34,352 nt of DNA, from the NCBI GenBank assembly GCA_018609125.1, contig JABAYF010000009.1, positions 1 to 34,352 of the forward strand, written 5' to 3'. The translations under genes were made by a program, and so were the position numbers. Below, piece after piece: positions 1,452 through 27,090 of the stretch (its first letter is position 1; each line of letters begins with the position of its first letter). The stretch is from Candidatus Nanopelagicales bacterium (lineage in GTDB: Bacteria; Actinomycetota; Actinomycetes; S36-B12). The notes under the pieces were generated by a model, which worked only from the letters and a program-made list of their open reading frames with translations, did not search any database and was not told where the DNA came from.

Positions 1452-1480
1452 TTGAAACACCGGTTACCCATGAGTAGCCT
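1452..1480 (+). promoter_or_regulatory. candidate sigma70-type promoter of the fadA-fadB operon
   Basis: A TTGAAA hexamer (1452-1457) and a TAGCCT hexamer (1475-1480) are separated by exactly 17 nt. The predicted transcription start is near 1487, giving a leader of about 55 nt that contains overlapping inverted repeats (1490-1509) and the ribosome binding site of fadA. This TTGAAA also opens a longer TTG-initiated reading frame of the thiolase, which I consider spurious. Confidence 0.45.
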
Positions 1481-1489
1481 AGGAGTTGA

Positions 1490-1509
1490 CACTTGCTCAA
1501 TAAGTGAGC
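1490..1509 (+). promoter_or_regulatory. overlapping inverted repeats, candidate operator of the fad operon
   Basis: Two interleaved inverted repeats share this 20-bp site: CACTT (1490-1494) with AAGTG (1502-1506), and GCTCA (1495-1499) with TGAGC (1505-1509). It lies just downstream of the predicted transcription start, where bound repressor would block transcription. The TetR-type gene that closes the operon (start 4968) is the obvious candidate ligand, by analogy with TetR-family regulators of fatty-acid degradation. No binding data exist in the sequence. Confidence 0.4.
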
Positions 1510-1541: not shown

Positions 1542-2753
1542 ATGACCGAGGCCTATATTTATGAAGCCATCCGCACCCCGCGAGGTCGCGGCAAAGCTAA
1601 CGGATCCCTGCATGGGGTGAAGCCGGTGAGCCTCGTGACCGGGCTCCTCAATGAACTCCAGGCCCGCCACCCAGGTCTGGATCCGGCAAACATCGACGAC
1701 GTCGTGCTCGGCTGCGTTACCCCGGTGGGCGACCAGGGTGCTGACATTGCCAAGACGGCCGCAATCGCCGCAGGCCTTCCCCCTACCGTGGCCGGTACGC
1801 AGATCAACCGTTTCTGCGCCTCAGGGCTTGAGTCGATCAACATTGCCGCCCAAAAGGTACGGGCCGGCTGGGATTCCCTCGTCGTTGCCGGTGGGGTGGA
1901 GTCGATGAGTCGTGTTCCCATCGGAAGTGATGGCGGGCCATGGGCGATGGATCCAGAAACCGCGTACGACTCCTACTTTGTGCCCCAGGGCATCAGTGCT
2001 GATCTCATTGCCACCATTGAAGGCTTCACTCGCGACGATGTCGATGCGTATTCAGTGCGGTCGCAAGAGCGCGCTGCGGCAGCCTGGAGCGGTGGACACT
2101 TCACCAAGTCGTTAGTGCCTGTCCGTGACAGCAATGGCGTCATCATTCTTGATCACGACGAACACATGCGCGCTGAAACCACCATGGAATCCCTGTCTAA
2201 GCTGTCCCCCGCGTTTGCGGCCATGGGCGACATGGGTGGCTTCGACGCGGTCGCGTTGCAGAAGTTTCACTGGGTGGAGCGCATCGACCATGTGCACACA
2301 GCAGGTAACTCTTCGGGCATTGTGGATGGTGCCGCACTGGTCCTGGTGGGTAGTGAAGAGGCCGGCCGCATCGCTGGACTCACCCCGCGCGGGCGCGTTG
2401 TGGCCACCGCGGTGAGTGGCGATGACCCGACCATTATGCTCACCGGCCCCACGCCGGCTACGCACAAAGTTCTTGCTGCAGCGGGCCTTACGCCCAAGGA
2501 CATCGATGTCTGGGAACTCAACGAAGCATTCGCTGCGGTGGTGTTGAAGTGGATGAAGGACTTCAATCTCGATATCGAACAGGTCAACGTCAACGGTGGT
2601 GCGATCGCCATGGGTCACCCCCTCGGCGCCACCGGCACGATGATCACCGGCACCGTGCTTGACGAACTTGAGCGCACCGGCGGCCGCTACGGCCTCATCA
2701 CCCTGTGCATCGGCGGCGGTATGGGCCTGGCCACCATTATTGAGCGGATCTGA
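1542..2753 (+). CDS. fadA: acetyl-CoA C-acyltransferase (3-ketoacyl-CoA thiolase)
   Basis: A 403-residue thiolase that cleaves 3-ketoacyl-CoA with CoA in the last step of beta-oxidation (reversible with acetyl-CoA). The nucleophile is Cys92 in NRFCASGLE; the other catalytic residues are His359 in [15 protein letters not shown] and Cys389 in LCIGGGMG; the NEAFA motif is at 327-331. The ATG at 1542 is chosen because AAAGGAG (1529-1535) lies 6 nt upstream and the protein then begins like the family ([13 protein letters not shown]). An in-frame TTG at 1452 would add 30 residues with no family similarity and overlaps the predicted promoter. fadB follows after 14 nt, forming the usual two-subunit beta-oxidation complex. 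The product is the trifunctional-type FadA or a close acetyl-CoA acetyltransferase; chain-length preference cannot be read. Confidence 0.93.
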
Positions 2754-2767
2754 GGAGACTTCACGCA

Positions 2768-4945
2768 ATGAACAACATGATTACCTGGGATCGCGGAACA
2801 GACGGTGTCGTCACCCTCACGATGGACGAGCCCGGTGCCAGCGCGAACACCATGAACGACGTGTTCATCTCTTCTCTAGAGCAAACACTGGATCGGATCG
2901 AGGCGGAGAAGGAGGACATCACCGGAGTTGTCATCACCAGCGCGAAGAAGACTTTCTTCGCCGGTGCTGATCTCAACCTCGTTATTCAAGCCACACCCGC
3001 CGACGCGCAGCGACTCGAATTAGAAACCGCTCGCATCAAAAAGGCACTGCGGCGCCTAGAAACGTGCGGTAAGCCCGTTGTTGCCGCGATCAATGGTGCC
3101 GCACTCGGTGGCGGTCTAGAAATTGCGCTCGCCTGCCACCATCGCATTGCGGTCGACGCTCGCGGAAGCGAAATCGGTTTACCTGAGGTGTCTCTAGGCC
3201 TGCTGCCGGGTGCCGGTGGCGTCGTCCGTACCGTGCGCATGTTCGGATTGCAAAAGGCGCTCATGGAGGTGCTGCTGCAAGGCCAGCGCCGCAAGCCGGC
3301 AAAGGCGGCAGAGGTAGGTCTCATTAGCGAGGTCGTTGCTGATCCGGCGGTCATGATGGCCAATGCCAAGACCTGGATCGCGGCTAACCCCGAAGCAGTG
3401 CAGCCCTGGGATGCCCCCGGCTACAAAATGCCCGGCGGCACACCGTCACAACCCAAGCTTGCGATGATGCTGCCGGCGTTCCCGGCAAACCTGCGCAAGC
3501 AGATCAAGGGCGCACCCATGCCCGCACCTTTGGCCATCATGTCGGCTGCGGTTGAGGGCGCACAGGTTGATTTCGCAACCGCTGAAAAGATTGAGGGCCG
3601 CTACTTCGTGAGCCTGGCTATCGGTCAAACAGCCAAGAACATGACGCAAGCGTTTTTCTTTGACCTGCAACACATCACCAAGGGTGGAGCTCGTCCCGAT
3701 GGCTTCCCGCGCTACACCGCGGTCAAGGCTCTGGTAATGGGCGCGGGCATGATGGGCGCCGGTATCGCTTACGTGTGCGCCCGTAACAACATTGAGGTCG
3801 TGCTCGTCGATACCACCCTCGCGGCGGCCGAAAAGGGTAAGGCCTACTCCCAGAACCTCCTCGATAAGGCTGTGTCCCGCGGACGCATGACCGAGCAGGC
3901 GCGCAATGACATTTTGGCCAGAATTCACCCATCCGACACCGTCGAAGACGGTGAGGGCGCCGATCTTGTTGTCGAGGCGGTGTTTGAAAGCCAGGAATTG
4001 AAGACCGAGGTCTTCGGCCGGATCGAACCTGTTGTGGCCGCTGATGCACTGCTCGGCTCCAATACTTCCACGCTGCCCATCACCGGGTTGGCCGATGGGG
4101 TAAAGCGCCAGGAAGATTTCATTGGGCTGCACTTCTTCTCACCGGTGGACAAAATGCCGCTATTGGAAATCGTGGTGGGTGCAAAGACCTCCGACGCCGC
4201 CATCGCTAAGGCGCTGGATTTCGCCGCGCAAATCAAAAAGACCCCGATCGTGGTGAACGATTCTCGTGGTTTCTTCACCTCCCGCGTGATCGGTACCTTC
4301 ATGGGCGAAGCGGTGGCCATGCTCGCCGAGGGCGCGCCGGCACCCTCCATCGAACAGGCGGGTTTGCAGGCCGGGTACCCCACCGGCCCGTTGGCACTGT
4401 TCGACGAGGTCAGCCTCACCCTGGGTCGGCGCATCCGCGAAGAAGGTCGCGTCGCGGCCAAGGAAGCTGGGCAAGATTTTGCCGAGCACCCGTCGTTTCC
4501 CGCCATTGACAAGATGGTGGTGGAGTTCGAGCGTGGCGGCCGAGCAGCGGGTGCGGGTTTTTATGAGTACGCCGACGGCAAGCGGCTGGGCCTGTGGGAT
4601 GCCCTCGGTGAACACTTCGGCGGCGACAACATGACGATGCCCTTCATCGATATGAAGGAGCGAATGCTCTTCGCCGAAGCTATCGAGAGCATAAAATGCC
4701 TTGATGAAGGTGTTCTTCGGTCGGTCCCCGAGGCCAATATTGGCTCGATTTTCGGTATTGGTTTCCCGCCGTGGACCGGTGGTGTGCTGCAGTACGTGAA
4801 CGGCTACGTAGCACCCGATGGCACGGTCAGTGGACCGGTCGGATTCGTGGCTAGAGCGCGTGAACTTGCCACTGTCTACGGCGATCGATTCACCCCACCC
4901 GCATCCGTGGTGGCCCTGGCTGAATCAGGTGGCCGCTACTCCTAA
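2768..4945 (+). CDS. fadB: 3-hydroxyacyl-CoA dehydrogenase / enoyl-CoA hydratase (FadB/FadJ type)
   Basis: A 725-residue bifunctional enzyme for the two middle steps of beta-oxidation. Residues 1-200 are a crotonase domain with the catalytic glutamates Glu118 (GGGLEIAL) and Glu140 (GLPEVSLGL). The NAD-binding domain starts near 320, with GAGMMGAGIA at 325-334; the catalytic His455 sits in GLHFFSPVDKMP, and NDSRGFFTSR follows near 500. The C-terminal helical 3-HCDH domains fill residues 505-725. Length and order match FadB/FadJ alpha subunits. A GAGGAG Shine-Dalgarno (2752-2757) overlaps the fadA stop and precedes the ATG. FadA is expected to form the beta subunit. Acyl-CoA dehydrogenase and acyl-CoA ligase are not in the window. 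Confidence 0.95.
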   Translation: MNNMITWDRGTDGVVTLTMDEPGASANTMNDVFISSLEQTLDRIEAEKEDITGVVITSAKKTFFAGADLNLVIQATPADAQRLELETARIKKALRRLETCGKPVVAAINGAALGGGLEIALACHHRIAVDARGSEIGLPEVSLGLLPGAGGVVRTVRMFGLQKALMEVLLQGQRRKPAKAAEVGLISEVVADPAVMMANAKTWIAANPEAVQPWDAPGYKMPGGTPSQPKLAMMLPAFPANLRKQIKGAPMPAPLAIMSAAVEGAQVDFATAEKIEGRYFVSLAIGQTAKNMTQAFFFDLQHITKGGARPDGFPRYTAVKALVMGAGMMGAGIAYVCARNNIEVVLVDTTLAAAEKGKAYSQNLLDKAVSRGRMTEQARNDILARIHPSDTVEDGEGADLVVEAVFESQELKTEVFGRIEPVVAADALLGSNTSTLPITGLADGVKRQEDFIGLHFFSPVDKMPLLEIVVGAKTSDAAIAKALDFAAQIKKTPIVVNDSRGFFTSRVIGTFMGEAVAMLAEGAPAPSIEQAGLQAGYPTGPLALFDEVSLTLGRRIREEGRVAAKEAGQDFAEHPSFPAIDKMVVEFERGGRAAGAGFYEYADGKRLGLWDALGEHFGGDNMTMPFIDMKERMLFAEAIESIKCLDEGVLRSVPEANIGSIFGIGFPPWTGGVLQYVNGYVAPDGTVSGPVGFVARARELATVYGDRFTPPASVVALAESGGRYS

Positions 4946-4954
4946 CGCGGTCGT

Positions 4955-4978
4955 CACCCGCTCCCGCATGAGCGGGTG
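4955..4978 (+). promoter_or_regulatory. perfect 9-bp inverted repeat across the TetR start codon
   Basis: CACCCGCTC (4955-4963) and GAGCGGGTG (4970-4978) are exact reverse complements separated by 6 nt. The ATG at 4968 begins in the loop and ends at the first base of the right arm. As RNA this would sequester the start; as DNA it could be an autoregulatory operator. There is no T-run, so it is not a typical intrinsic terminator for fadAB. Confidence 0.5.
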
Positions 4979-5540
4979 CGATCGCCGTCGTCAACTCGTG
5001 CAGATCGGCTGGCAACTACTGCAAAACCAGCCGATCCACGAGCTGGCTCTCGATGAGGTGGCCGCTGCCGCTGGCATCTCTCGTTCCCTTCTTTTCCACT
5101 ATTTTCCCACCAAGGGCGACTTCTATGCCGCCGTCGTGGAAGCTGCGGGTGCGCGCATGCTCAAACCCGTTCGAGTCACCGGCAGTGACACTCCTGAGCA
5201 GCGTGTACGCGTCCTCATCGAGGGATTTATCCGGCTCGTGGAGCGCAACCGAGTGGGCTACACCTCGTTGGTGCGAGGTGCCGGTGGCGGTGACGTTCGC
5301 GTTGTTGATGCGATGGCGCGCGTACGTGATTCGTTGGTGCCGCGGTGGCTGTCAGCAGCCGGCATCAGTGATGTATCGACACCGGAAACTGAACTCACCC
5401 GCCTCGTTGTTCGAGGGTGGTTGGTTGGGATGGAAGAAACTGTTTTGGCGTGGAACCCCCAACGTGTCGCCCGTGATGTATTAATCGATCATCTCGTGCG
5501 GTCGTTTTTCGCTGAAATTGAGCTTGCTGCGACGTCGTAG
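4968..5540 (+). CDS. TetR-family transcriptional regulator
   Basis: A 190-residue TetR-type repressor. The N-terminal helix-turn-helix spans about residues 28-47 (LDEVAAAAGISRSLLFHYF), followed by the usual PTKGDFY segment; the C-terminal ligand-binding part has no recognisable ligand signature. The start is placed at ATG 4968, which lies in a 9-bp hairpin 22 nt after the fadB stop. An in-frame GTG at 4929 inside fadB would add 13 residues and is possible. The position directly behind fadA-fadB suggests it controls beta-oxidation, probably with an acyl-CoA as inducer; this is inference from context. The reading frame is open further upstream within fadB, but those residues do not look like TetR. 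Confidence 0.88.
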   Translation: MSGCDRRRQLVQIGWQLLQNQPIHELALDEVAAAAGISRSLLFHYFPTKGDFYAAVVEAAGARMLKPVRVTGSDTPEQRVRVLIEGFIRLVERNRVGYTSLVRGAGGGDVRVVDAMARVRDSLVPRWLSAAGISDVSTPETELTRLVVRGWLVGMEETVLAWNPQRVARDVLIDHLVRSFFAEIELAATS

Positions 5541-5543
5541 CAA
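5524..5543 (+). repeat. near-perfect 20-bp palindrome at the end of the TetR gene
   Basis: The arms TTGCTgCGACG and CGTCGtAGCAA mirror each other with a single mismatched pair; the TetR stop codon (5538-5540) lies inside. There is no following T-run. It may be a transcription pause or a binding site, or may have no function. Confidence 0.35.
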
Positions 5544-5592
5544 CGCACAGATTGCACCCGTGTGGCAGCGCCGATTTTTGTTGGCAGCCCAG

Positions 5593-5598
5593 TAGCGT
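5593..5598 (+). promoter_or_regulatory. candidate -10 element (TAGCGT), leaderless start
   Basis: TAGCGT is followed by exactly 6 nt and then the ATG at 5605. No Shine-Dalgarno sequence is present. The spacing equals that seen at several other starts in the window. Confidence 0.4.
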
Positions 5599-5604
5599 CG
5601 ACCC

Positions 5605-6024
5605 ATGACCGAGCAAGACCTCTCACACCTGTCCGGTGTGTCAGGTGCTGCCCGCTTCATTCGCATCGTGCTTGGTCTCGGTGCACTGCTCTTTATCGTC
5701 TCCGGTATCGCATTGCTGATCGCACCGTCCCTGCTGGCCGAACAACTAGGCCTCGAGGCACTCGCCGACACCAATTGGACTCTGCAAATGCTGGGTGCAG
5801 CACTCATTGGGCTCAGCGGTCAGATGTGGTTGGTGCGCCGCGCTCCCGATCATCCCGTGCTCGGCAGCGCCGTGGTCATGTTGGTCGCCGGTGGCCTCAT
5901 GGTGGTGCTCACCCTCACCCTGCCCGGCCCGTGGACCATCCTGCGCTGGGTCTACCTGGGCGTTGGCGTCATCTTCTGGCTGACGTATGCACTCCTTGTC
6001 TGGAGCAGTCGCCGCCGAACCTAG
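5605..6024 (+). CDS. four-TM membrane protein of unknown function
   Basis: A 139-residue integral membrane protein with hydrophobic segments near residues 20-42, 58-77, 86-106 and 112-133 and a basic C-terminal tail (SSRRRT). I do not recognise a family and see no conserved polar residues inside the membrane segments that would suggest transport. It is a monocistronic plus-strand gene after the TetR regulator and has its own candidate leaderless promoter. Its TAG stop and the TAG stop of the convergent Nudix gene share the same CTAG (6021-6024). Confidence 0.7.
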   Translation: MTEQDLSHLSGVSGAARFIRIVLGLGALLFIVSGIALLIAPSLLAEQLGLEALADTNWTLQMLGAALIGLSGQMWLVRRAPDHPVLGSAVVMLVAGGLMVVLTLTLPGPWTILRWVYLGVGVIFWLTYALLVWSSRRRT

Positions 6025-6527
6025 ACCGATGAGGGGTTGTCGTACAGCGCGAGTAGCCGGGGAAGTAGTTCGGCGAAGGGCGCGAAGAGTGGAATGTGAG
6101 GCAGGTCATCGCGTCGCCACCACCGGGCCTCATCGTTTTCAGGCGACAGGGTGGCCTCGTAGTGAGGTTGCTCGGCAACGTCGGCGCAGCAGGTGTGGTA
6201 ACTCCAATCGCCGGGTGCAACTGCATCTTCTAACACCCCTACGAGGGCGAAGCCGTTGGGCACCCCACCGATTTCTTCGTCGAATTCACGGAGCGCAGCC
6301 GTGACCGGGTCTTCATGGGAGTCGATAGCGCCACCGGGCACCGACCATTCGCCATTGCCCCGATGCACCCAGGCTGCACGCTTGGCCAGTAAGAACCATT
6401 CAACGCCGTCGGAATCAGTGTGGCGCAGTAAGATTCCGGCGGCTCCAAAACGGCCCCAAAAGACCCGCCCGTCGTCGAGTTTTACCCAGCCATCACCGGA
6501 TCCGGGCGCATGATTGCCAACGGTCAT
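6021..6527 (-). CDS. Nudix hydrolase
   Basis: A 168-residue Nudix-family pyrophosphohydrolase. The Nudix box begins at the second Gly of PGGAIDSHE and continues to REFDEEIGG, fitting G-x5-E-x7-R-E-U-x-E-E-x-G, so the metal-binding glutamates are present. The N-terminal part (WGRFGAAGILLRH) and the segment WSYHTCCADV fit the beta strands of the fold. The substrate cannot be read; NTPs, oxidised nucleotides and nucleotide sugars are all possible. It starts at ATG 6527, 4 nt after the stop of ppa, so both are probably one transcription unit. The pairing of a pyrophosphate-releasing or related hydrolase with inorganic pyrophosphatase is suggestive only. Confidence 0.88.
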   Translation of the reverse strand: MTVGNHAPGSGDGWVKLDDGRVFWGRFGAAGILLRHTDSDGVEWFLLAKRAAWVHRGNGEWSVPGGAIDSHEDPVTAALREFDEEIGGVPNGFALVGVLEDAVAPGDWSYHTCCADVAEQPHYEATLSPENDEARWWRRDDLPHIPLFAPFAELLPRLLALYDNPSSV

Positions 6528-25596: not shown

Positions 25597-27090
25597 GTGA
25601 GCGATGTCGACGACCTTCCGGAGCAAATGCTGATCCGTCGCCAGAAGCGGCAGCAACTGATCGACTCTGGGCGCGAGGCGTACCCGGTGGCTCTGCCGAT
25701 CACCCACACCATCGGACAGATTCGTCAGGCTTATCCCGATCTTGCTATCGACTCCCAGACGGGGGAGCAGGTAGGGGTGAGTGGTCGAATCATTTTCCAG
25801 CGCAATACCGGCAAGCTGTGTTTCGCCACGATTCGAGCCGGCACGGGAGAAGAACTTCAGGTCATGATCTCGGTGGCATCGGTGGGTGAAGAAGAACTTC
25901 AGTCGTGGAAACACCTGGTCGATATCGGCGACCAGGTGTTCGTGCGCGGTGAGGTCATCACCTCCAAGCGTGGTGAACTTTCGGTCATGGCCGAGGAGTG
26001 GCGAATGGCCGCAAAGTCCCTGCGCCCGCTACCTGTGGCACATAAGCCCCTGACCGAAGAAACTCGCGTGCGCCAACGCTATGTCGACCTCATCGTGCGT
26101 CCGGAGGCCCGGCACATTGCACGTACCCGAATTGACATGATTGCCAGTCTCAGGCGCGGCCTGACCGACCGGGACTACCTGGAGATCGAAACCCCGATGC
26201 TGCAGACCATGCACGGGGGAGCCTCTGCGCGACCCTTCGTTACCCGTTCCAATGCTTTCGATCTAGAGCTTTATTTGCGCATCGCACCGGAACTCTTTCT
26301 GAAGCGGGCTGTGGTGGGCGGGCTGGAGCGCGTCTTTGAGATCAATCGAAATTTTCGCAATGAGGGTGCCGATTCCACTCACTCACCGGAGTTCGCGATG
26401 CTGGAGTTCTATCAGGCTTACGCTGACTATCGGGTGATGGCGACGATCACGCGCGAGTTGATTCAGCAGGCCGCGTTGACCACGACCGGCGGGCTCGTGG
26501 TGACTCACACTGATGGCAGCGAACACGACCTCTCGGGTACCTGGGCCGAGATTGACCTGTATGAGGCAACATCGGCGGCACTGGGCCAGCACATCACGCC
26601 GGAGACACCTCGCGATCAACTACTTTCTTGGTGTTCAGACACCGACATTGATGTTGCTCCCCAATGGGTTTGCGGAAAACTTGTGGAAGAACTCTTCGAA
26701 TATTATGTGATTCCTACGCTGACCGGCCCAACCTTCGTCTTCAACTACCCCGTCGACACATCACCTCTCGTCCGCGCGCACCGGGACAGGCCGGGTGTGG
26801 TGGAAAAGTGGGATTTATACGTCAACGGTTATGAACAGGCCACCGGATATTCAGAGTTGGTAGACCCGGTGATTCAACGTCAACGGTTGACCGAGCAAGC
26901 CCAACTGGGTGCCGGCGGTGATGCCGAGGCAATGCCACTTGACGAAGATTTTTTGCGCGCATTGGAAATCGGCATGCCACCCAGCGGTGGTGTCGGGCTG
27001 GGCATTGATCGGCTACTCATGTCGCTCACCGGTCTGGGCATCCGCGAGACGATTCTCTTTCCGTTGGTCAAACCCGAGGCGACCCAGTGA
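25597..27090 (+). CDS. lysS: lysyl-tRNA synthetase, class II
   Basis: A 497-residue class II synthetase. The N-terminal anticodon-binding OB fold covers about residues 50-160 ([12 protein letters not shown] to LSVMAEEW). The catalytic core has motif 1 near [27 protein letters not shown], motif 2 [24 protein letters not shown] and motif 3 [15 protein letters not shown]. Length is normal. The GTG at 25597 is preferred over an upstream ATG at 25570 because the added residues look like non-coding spacer and a candidate -10 hexamer would lie inside. The GNAT gene overlaps its stop by 4 nt. Confidence 0.96.

Follow-up and report, generated by a model that had tools for sequence, protein, structure and literature searches.

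Gene organization of the locus and sample of relatives

The DNA analyzed here (the window) is the whole 34,352-nt stretch of contig JABAYF010000009.1 from a Candidatus Nanopelagicales bacterium, and its plus strand carries fadA, fadB and then a TetR-family gene, in that order. The genes and the candidate promoter in front of them are as follows.

1452..1480, + strand: candidate promoter TTGAAA-N17-TAGCCT, just 5' of the putative operator, read by eye
1542..2753, + strand: fadA, thiolase gene, first of the operon, named as in the preliminary description and by synteny
2768..4945, + strand: fadB, fatty acid oxidation complex alpha subunit (FadB/FadJ-like), stop codon TAA at 4943-4945
4929..5540, + strand: tetR, gene of a TetR-family regulator, identified by PF00440 and PF21943

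The NCBIfam FadJ/FadB models aligned with FadB at full length, with scores under their cut-offs, and the tetR product has a TetR_N domain (PF00440, 36.5 bits against a cut-off of 24; PF21943, 34.8 against 27). Hexamers similar to those of the candidate fadA promoter were seen by eye in some relatives, no consensus promoter was found in 4600-5700, and fadA-fadB-tetR would probably form a single transcript from 1452-1480. Among the literature matches listed (titles and abstract openings), there was no report on this operon.

The search for relatives covered 79 related genomes, 85 genomes of the family, 166 of the order and 394 of the class, and the contig search kept the best 80 of 263. After removal of duplicate contigs we had 15 distinct fadB-tetR junctions, all of which were used: the window, L034-L045, L124 (= L011) and L127, with L034 and L035 as same-genus relatives of the window and L036-L042 as orthologues from genus g8. 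Where a name is given, the carrier of the junction is an uncultured actinobacterium, in two cases with the label Candidatus Nanopelagicales. The 394 class genomes gave no further operon orthologue (L160 duplicates L044, and L161 is a stretch without fadA or fadB), the viral contigs searched for relatives gave none, and G001 and G069 were left out for cut tetR pieces or no adjacent fadB (L013, L012). Two other groups were compared. The best 80 of 263 included 68 standalone TetR relatives (L046-L113), from Streptomyces, Kribbella, Nocardioides, Nocardia and others, with no fadA/fadB match in flanking stretches of up to 6 kb on each side. In addition, 16 fadB loci without a tetR relative were fetched, which gave 11 usable rows; the cut fadB genes L157 and L158 were left out, and L149, L151 and L156 yielded no row.

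Start codon of tetR

Two codons come into question as the beginning of tetR.

4929..4931, + strand: GTG, probable tetR start, inside fadB; the sole in-frame ATG/GTG/TTG from -60 to ATG 4968
4968..4970, + strand: ATG in the hairpin loop, very probably the internal codon Met14 of TetR, from residue conservation

The preliminary description had taken ATG 4968 as the TetR start. The residue before it, Arg13, is kept in all 15 operon orthologues, where it is encoded by CGC, CGG or AGG, and in all 68 standalone relatives (from the best 80 of 263). Residue 14 itself varies: 11 of the operon orthologues have Met there and the other four (L040, L044, L045, L124) have Leu, and among the same 68 standalone relatives just 1 has Met and 53 have Leu. 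Between the fadB stop and the counterpart of ATG 4968 the junctions have spacers of 22 to 100 nt. Spacer length is 1 mod 3 in 11/15 junctions (ten of the window's family and L043), as would be expected if length changes fall within a translated stretch. On this conservation (Arg13 kept, Met14 variable, spacer frame) ATG 4968 was rejected as the start, and it is very probably internal.

GTG 4929, which lies 17 nt ahead of the first base past the fadB stop, is the likely start. An equivalent GTG is present in L035 and in all seven g8 orthologues, though its presence could be explained by fadB's own codons, and no clear Shine-Dalgarno sequence was seen by eye at GTG 4929. In 14/15 junctions there is an in-frame start at -17 to +15 relative to the fadB stop; the exception is L043, which is without a start codon 5' of the hairpin. 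A FadB-TetR fusion made by readthrough or frameshift was also considered and dropped: the frame offset is 1 mod 3 in 11/15 but 0 or 2 in four, so no recoding event could be common to all orthologues.

A hairpin directly behind the fadB stop

The structure at the junction consists of an inner repeat and a longer stem built around it.

4947..4985, + strand: whole post-stop RNA hairpin, 16 pairs in two blocks (7 + 9) separated by bulge T4954 and capped by loop CCGCAT, from the MFE fold
4955..4978, + strand: inner perfect 9-bp inverted repeat, the one first noticed, by sequence match

The perfect 9-bp repeat given in the preliminary description is exact (CACCCGCTC-CCGCAT-GAGCGGGTG), and it is the core of a longer stem, with 7 extra pairs (4947-4953/4979-4985) beyond the 1-nt bulge T4954. 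The whole stem opens 1 base past the fadB TAA, while 9 bases separate TAA from the inner repeat. The start codon had been placed in the loop, which is right for the A and T of ATG 4968-4970, but the G is the first stem base. Since the ATG is probably internal, the left arm would encode N-terminal codons of tetR, namely the basic TRSR stretch preceding the DNA-binding domain.

A bare 9-bp hairpin is unremarkable in this DNA, because the 34-kb window has 4 such sites (perfect 9-bp arms, loops of 3-8 nt), and 60 dinucleotide shuffles had 1.67 on average and 8 at most. The fold energy of the junction is a different matter. The 43-nt junction fold has -30.8 kcal/mol, a value reached by 0/1000 dinucleotide shuffles (window z -5.3), and 0/1000 synonymous recodings were as low as the window (-30.5 vs a mean of -14.1, 42 nt in frame). 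When a 106-nt stretch around the hairpin was folded, the diluted z was only -1.98 and 9/200 shuffles were as low. The Rfam scan of the window gave 0 matches at gathering score. The repeat 4955-4978 is the sole match to its pattern in the genome sequence searched, even with up to 3 mismatches allowed, and a reading as a repeat element was dropped for this single-copy occurrence. Elsewhere in the window, 25910-25940 holds a perfect 12-bp hairpin (AACACCTGGTCG/CGACCAGGTGTT, 7-nt loop), the longest perfect one among 25 inverted repeats listed.

Probable operator of the TetR family

Because the palindrome at 4955-4978 adjoins a regulator gene, it could be read as a DNA operator for autoregulation by TetR, as the preliminary description had offered in the alternative. 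The comparison with standalone relatives leads elsewhere. The family operator is TTGAGCA(A/T)TGCTCAA, with the forms TTGAGCAATGCTCAA and TTGAGCATTGCTCAA, and matches to these with at most 2 mismatches lie upstream of 51/68 standalone relatives (best 80 of 263) vs 0/319 control stretches. No report of an operator of this TetR family was among the literature matches listed. Its counterpart in the window lies ahead of fadA.

1486..1500, + strand: probable TetR operator TTGACACTTGCTCAA in the fadA promoter, with 3 mismatches to the family palindrome

This site is the sole TTGANNNNTGCTCAA match in the genome sequence searched, and degenerate operator copies of this kind begin about 31-63 nt ahead of fadA. 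Of the 11 fadA upstream regions examined, nine have a copy with 3 mismatches; the copy of L044 has 4 and that of L043 has 5, and by mismatch count these two are no better than chance. The hairpin region 4940-4995, on the other hand, has 8/15 mismatches in its best match, and the repeat sequence differs in relatives. TetR would thus probably bind 1486-1500 and not the hairpin region, and we regard an operator at the palindrome as very improbable. The GCTC-N7-GAGC site that had been described at fadA does occur in the window, but both same-genus relatives (L034, L035) lack the GAGC half.

Two further features were seen among the operator sites. In 28/68 standalone loci (e.g. L072, L073, L077), an in-frame ATG, probably the tetR start, sits exactly in the center of the palindrome, and the repressor's own operator would therefore encode the repressor's first codons. 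In L043, the fadA promoter has, in place of the fadA operator, an inverted repeat at 2470-2516 with perfect 21-bp arms and a 5-nt loop (GTGGTTGATGGCTCTATTGAC/GTCAATAGAGCCATCAACCAC), which is the strongest fold among the control junctions described below.

The hairpin across orthologous junctions

The letters of the spacer and its protein sequence are variable, and spacers look unrelated between genera. Nevertheless, the fold was better than 95% of shuffles (at most 50/1000) at 12/15 junctions; the exceptions at the 5% level are L036 (67/1000), L039 (59/1000) and L044 (430/1000), the last of which shows no excess. The stems range from a perfect 12-bp stem in L042 to a long, GC-rich one in L127. 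The main stem begins 0-3 nt past the fadB stop in 10/15 junctions and 7-39 nt past it in L034, L038, L043, L045 and L124, with an outer stem opening at +0 in L038. When the 40-nt energy profiles of all 15 junctions (5-nt steps) are averaged, the minimum lies at +0 after the fadB stop (-20.8 vs -11 to -17 at other positions within 100 nt), although the minimum of the individual profiles falls inside -5..+15 of the stop in only 8/15. The fadB-tetR spacer of L034 has two consecutive hairpins (5961-6045), and its ATG lies 1 base past the fadB stop.

Compensatory changes in orthologues had been proposed as a check of the hairpin, and pairing is kept in most relatives, partly via compensatory change. 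When the window was aligned with L034 and L035, 44/48 pair cells were standard (91.7%), and a slid partner left 35-54%. Two pairs changed on both sides (G-C in the window to A-U in L034, and A-U in the window to C-G in L035), each being unpaired in the third sequence, but with only three sequences this is not significant, as 115/500 shuffles reached the same number of both-sided changes.

Exchange of the arms between species gave a broader view. The 5' arm of a junction pairs 14.7 kcal/mol better with its own 3' arm than with the 3' arms of other species, while 160 control offsets under identical treatment gave 5.8 (sd 1.2, extreme 8.9); the plain arm swap is biased, as the arms are taken from the fold, and the 160-position control corrects for that. 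The mean pair count of the main hairpin is unexceptional, with 25/160 controls reaching the same. Because 12/15 junctions beat their shuffles despite differing spacers, and because arms match their own partners beyond the controls, the hairpin looks to be under selection. Judged from these comparisons, it is a property of the junction and not of any fixed sequence.

Specificity of the structure signal

As controls we took 70 other same-strand gene pairs of the same loci, with genes called by simply taking the longest ORF. Over the 60 nt that follow the stop, the orthologues had a mean z of -2.25, with 8/15 at z <= -2, vs a mean z of -0.23 and 5/70 below -2 in the control junctions (Mann-Whitney p=9e-5). 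For the best 40-nt window at +0..+15, the orthologues averaged -24.1 vs -11.5 (lowest -19.9) for the 46 controls spaced <25 nt (p=5e-8) and -13.5 for the 24 wider-spaced controls, these being raw energies uncorrected for G+C. Both p-values are optimistic, because the 15 orthologues are related. Under the synonymous null, z was negative in 15/15 and at most 50/1000 recodings were as low in 10/15. With sliding 60-nt windows and mononucleotide shuffles, 8/15 junctions had a best window at z <= -2.5, a level found in 3% of the 4641 control windows; in this test L035 and L044 were ordinary. At the same place in the N-termini of standalone tetR genes (68 from the best 80 of 263), the mean z was -0.16, with 3/68 below -2. 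The computations thus support the hairpin itself, an excess over composition and codon constraint, a position at the stop in most orthologues, absence from standalone genes and an internal ATG.

These controls bear on a reading in which the hairpin has no function and a GC-rich, weakly constrained spacer simply gathers inverted repeats by mutation. The variable protein sequence and length of the spacer and the difference of hairpin sequences between genera agree with such a by-product. But neither the 70 other junctions nor the 68 standalone N-termini have a comparable excess, and the arm-matching score was unreached at the 160 control positions, so we consider it improbable; the controls are mostly coding DNA, which covers a bias special to loose spacers only in part.

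Post-stop structure was also found behind fadB genes without an adjacent tetR, with z <= -2 in 6/11 usable loci (L139-L141, L145, L147, L159) and no such structure in the other 5/11. Since these six have such structure, it is not exclusive to tetR, and part of the junction signal may belong to the end of fadB. In L139-L141 the hairpin stands behind the fadB of another genus, and in L139 and L140 the GTG that opens the next reading frame sits in the 5' arm of the hairpin, as read by eye.

Hairpins behind such solitary fadB genes (L145, L147, L159) could be terminators, and this gives some weight to a reading as an intercistronic mRNA element, in which the hairpin, as a terminator that lacks a U-tract and works in part or as a stabilizer of the 3' end, would leave more fadAB than tetR mRNA. 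However, the search for a canonical terminator in 4600-5700 gave 0 sites with stem and T-run. The stem also lies right against the stop codon, and ribosomes that terminate there would open its lower part; in-frame coding crosses the hairpin (11/15 spacers 1 mod 3), so the hairpin is not untranslated. We therefore hold this mRNA element to be rather unlikely.

Proposed role as a brake on re-initiation

We give a probability of about one half to the reading that the hairpin acts as a translational brake behind the fadB stop, limiting re-initiation into tetR. In this model, fadA-fadB-tetR would be transcribed from 1452-1480 and repressed by TetR at 1486-1500. Ribosomes would end fadB at 4943-4945, while tetR would begin inside fadB at GTG 4929, and in relatives the tetR start would mostly lie within a few bases of the fadB stop. 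Because tetR seems to start inside fadB or near its stop, we infer that it is translated largely by re-initiating ribosomes. The stable stem, placed at the edge of a ribosome that terminates or re-initiates, would then cut the share of ribosomes that continue into tetR, which would keep the repressor low relative to FadB, yet tied to FadB translation. Inhibition as the direction, like the size of the effect, belongs to this model, and the brake is the best explanation because overlapping genes, a structure that begins at the stop and a downstream repressor come together here.

The preliminary description had also tied the hairpin to repressor translation, through a stem that hides ATG 4968 from ribosomes until fadB is translated. 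As a junction feature this is plausible, but the hiding of ATG 4968 as a start fails if tetR begins at GTG 4929, as is likely, and a start at that very codon had been named as grounds for giving it up. A wider form of the idea has the tetR start region buried in the folded hairpin until ribosomes that translate fadB to the end, and no others, melt the stem, so that the repressor would be strictly proportional to FadB. In L036-L042 the GTG at +1 or +4 has bases that are almost always paired (unpaired probability <= 0.09), with a second GTG at +4 of L039 partly open; the stems lie next to the stop, beneath the terminating ribosome, in 10/15; and the next-frame GTGs of L139 and L140 lie in such a stem (by eye), tetR being absent there. 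All this is consistent with coupling through unfolding. But the window's likely start, GTG 4929, is outside the stem (unpaired probabilities 0.31-0.60), the geometry from start to stem varies among orthologues, and one library study, as far as the parts consulted go, found post-stop structure together with weaker coupling (PMC7518266; PMC12548453). We thus judge unfolding coupling to be clearly less probable than a brake, but it is possible, above all in genus g8 with its GTG at +1/+4 in the stem, if those codons are starts.

The analysis moves the likely start of tetR to GTG 4929 and points to a probable operator for this TetR family. The gene behind the hairpin encodes a repressor whose dose should matter, and if the hairpin is a brake, the junction would be a clear, testable case of an RNA structure that meters a regulator.

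Comparison with known systems

Actinobacterial I-shaped terminators are hairpins without a U-tract. The present hairpin is like them in its GC-rich stem without a T-run, and unlike them in lying within an operon and a downstream coding sequence and in abutting a stop codon.

In the pvuIIC-pvuIIR pair, as at the fadB-tetR junction, a regulator gene overlaps its neighbor by about 20 nt and hairpins are predicted at the junction, but the regulator is the upstream gene there (PMC2997769). In the part of that work drawn on here, disrupting the junction hairpins had no significant effect, which is a caution against inferring function from a hairpin (PMC2997769).

According to a 2025 review, coupled starts may also be surrounded by structure that serves coupling through unfolding (PMC12548453). 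The examples taken from it, f1 gene VII/IX, MS2 coat/lysis and rpmI-rplT, share with our junction a structure within reach of upstream ribosomes, but the likely start codon of the window is outside the structure (PMC12548453).

The closest parallel comes from Chemla et al. (2020), whose sections considered here report that a structure directly after the upstream stop was accompanied by lower downstream expression in a synthetic E. coli operon, and who named such a structure ribosome termination structure (RTS) (PMC7518266). Their claim for the role of RTSs rests on this synthetic set-up, and they state that native RTSs should be perturbed (PMC7518266). RTSs were counted where the next gene is at least 25 nt off or the neighbor is on the opposite strand, and they are depleted in gene pairs <25 nt apart or overlapping (PMC7518266). 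Here, GTG 4929 overlaps fadB, and even ATG 4968 is just 22 nt off. For the delta-LFE condition (at least 5 consecutive negative 40-nt windows, opening at -10..+20), the window had a run of 31/31 and all 15 orthologues had runs of 7-31 windows, with a randomization of our own that was modelled on that of PMC7518266 and is not identical to it. An energy of dG <= -6 kcal/mol in at least one window was found in 15/15 (-30.5 in the window), which is a weak criterion in GC-rich DNA. The hairpin agrees with an RTS in energy and delta-LFE, but with this gene spacing it is not one by definition; it may nevertheless work like one.

It is like an RTS in being a stable structure right behind a stop that beats its randomized versions and in its proposed control of re-initiation; it is unlike one in that the two genes overlap, that it forms part of the downstream gene's coding sequence and that it recurs across genera at one junction (PMC7518266). 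With less confidence than for the brake itself, we tentatively suggest that a hairpin free of fixed sequence, rebuilt in other letters in each lineage at one junction, sets the enzyme-to-repressor ratio of a self-repressed operon. It would be an RTS that meters re-initiation into an overlapping repressor gene and is written in the repressor's N-terminal codons, instead of insulating unlinked genes. The fadB-tetR junction thus offers a natural example with 15 divergent versions, in an overlapping-gene setting where RTSs are normally depleted.
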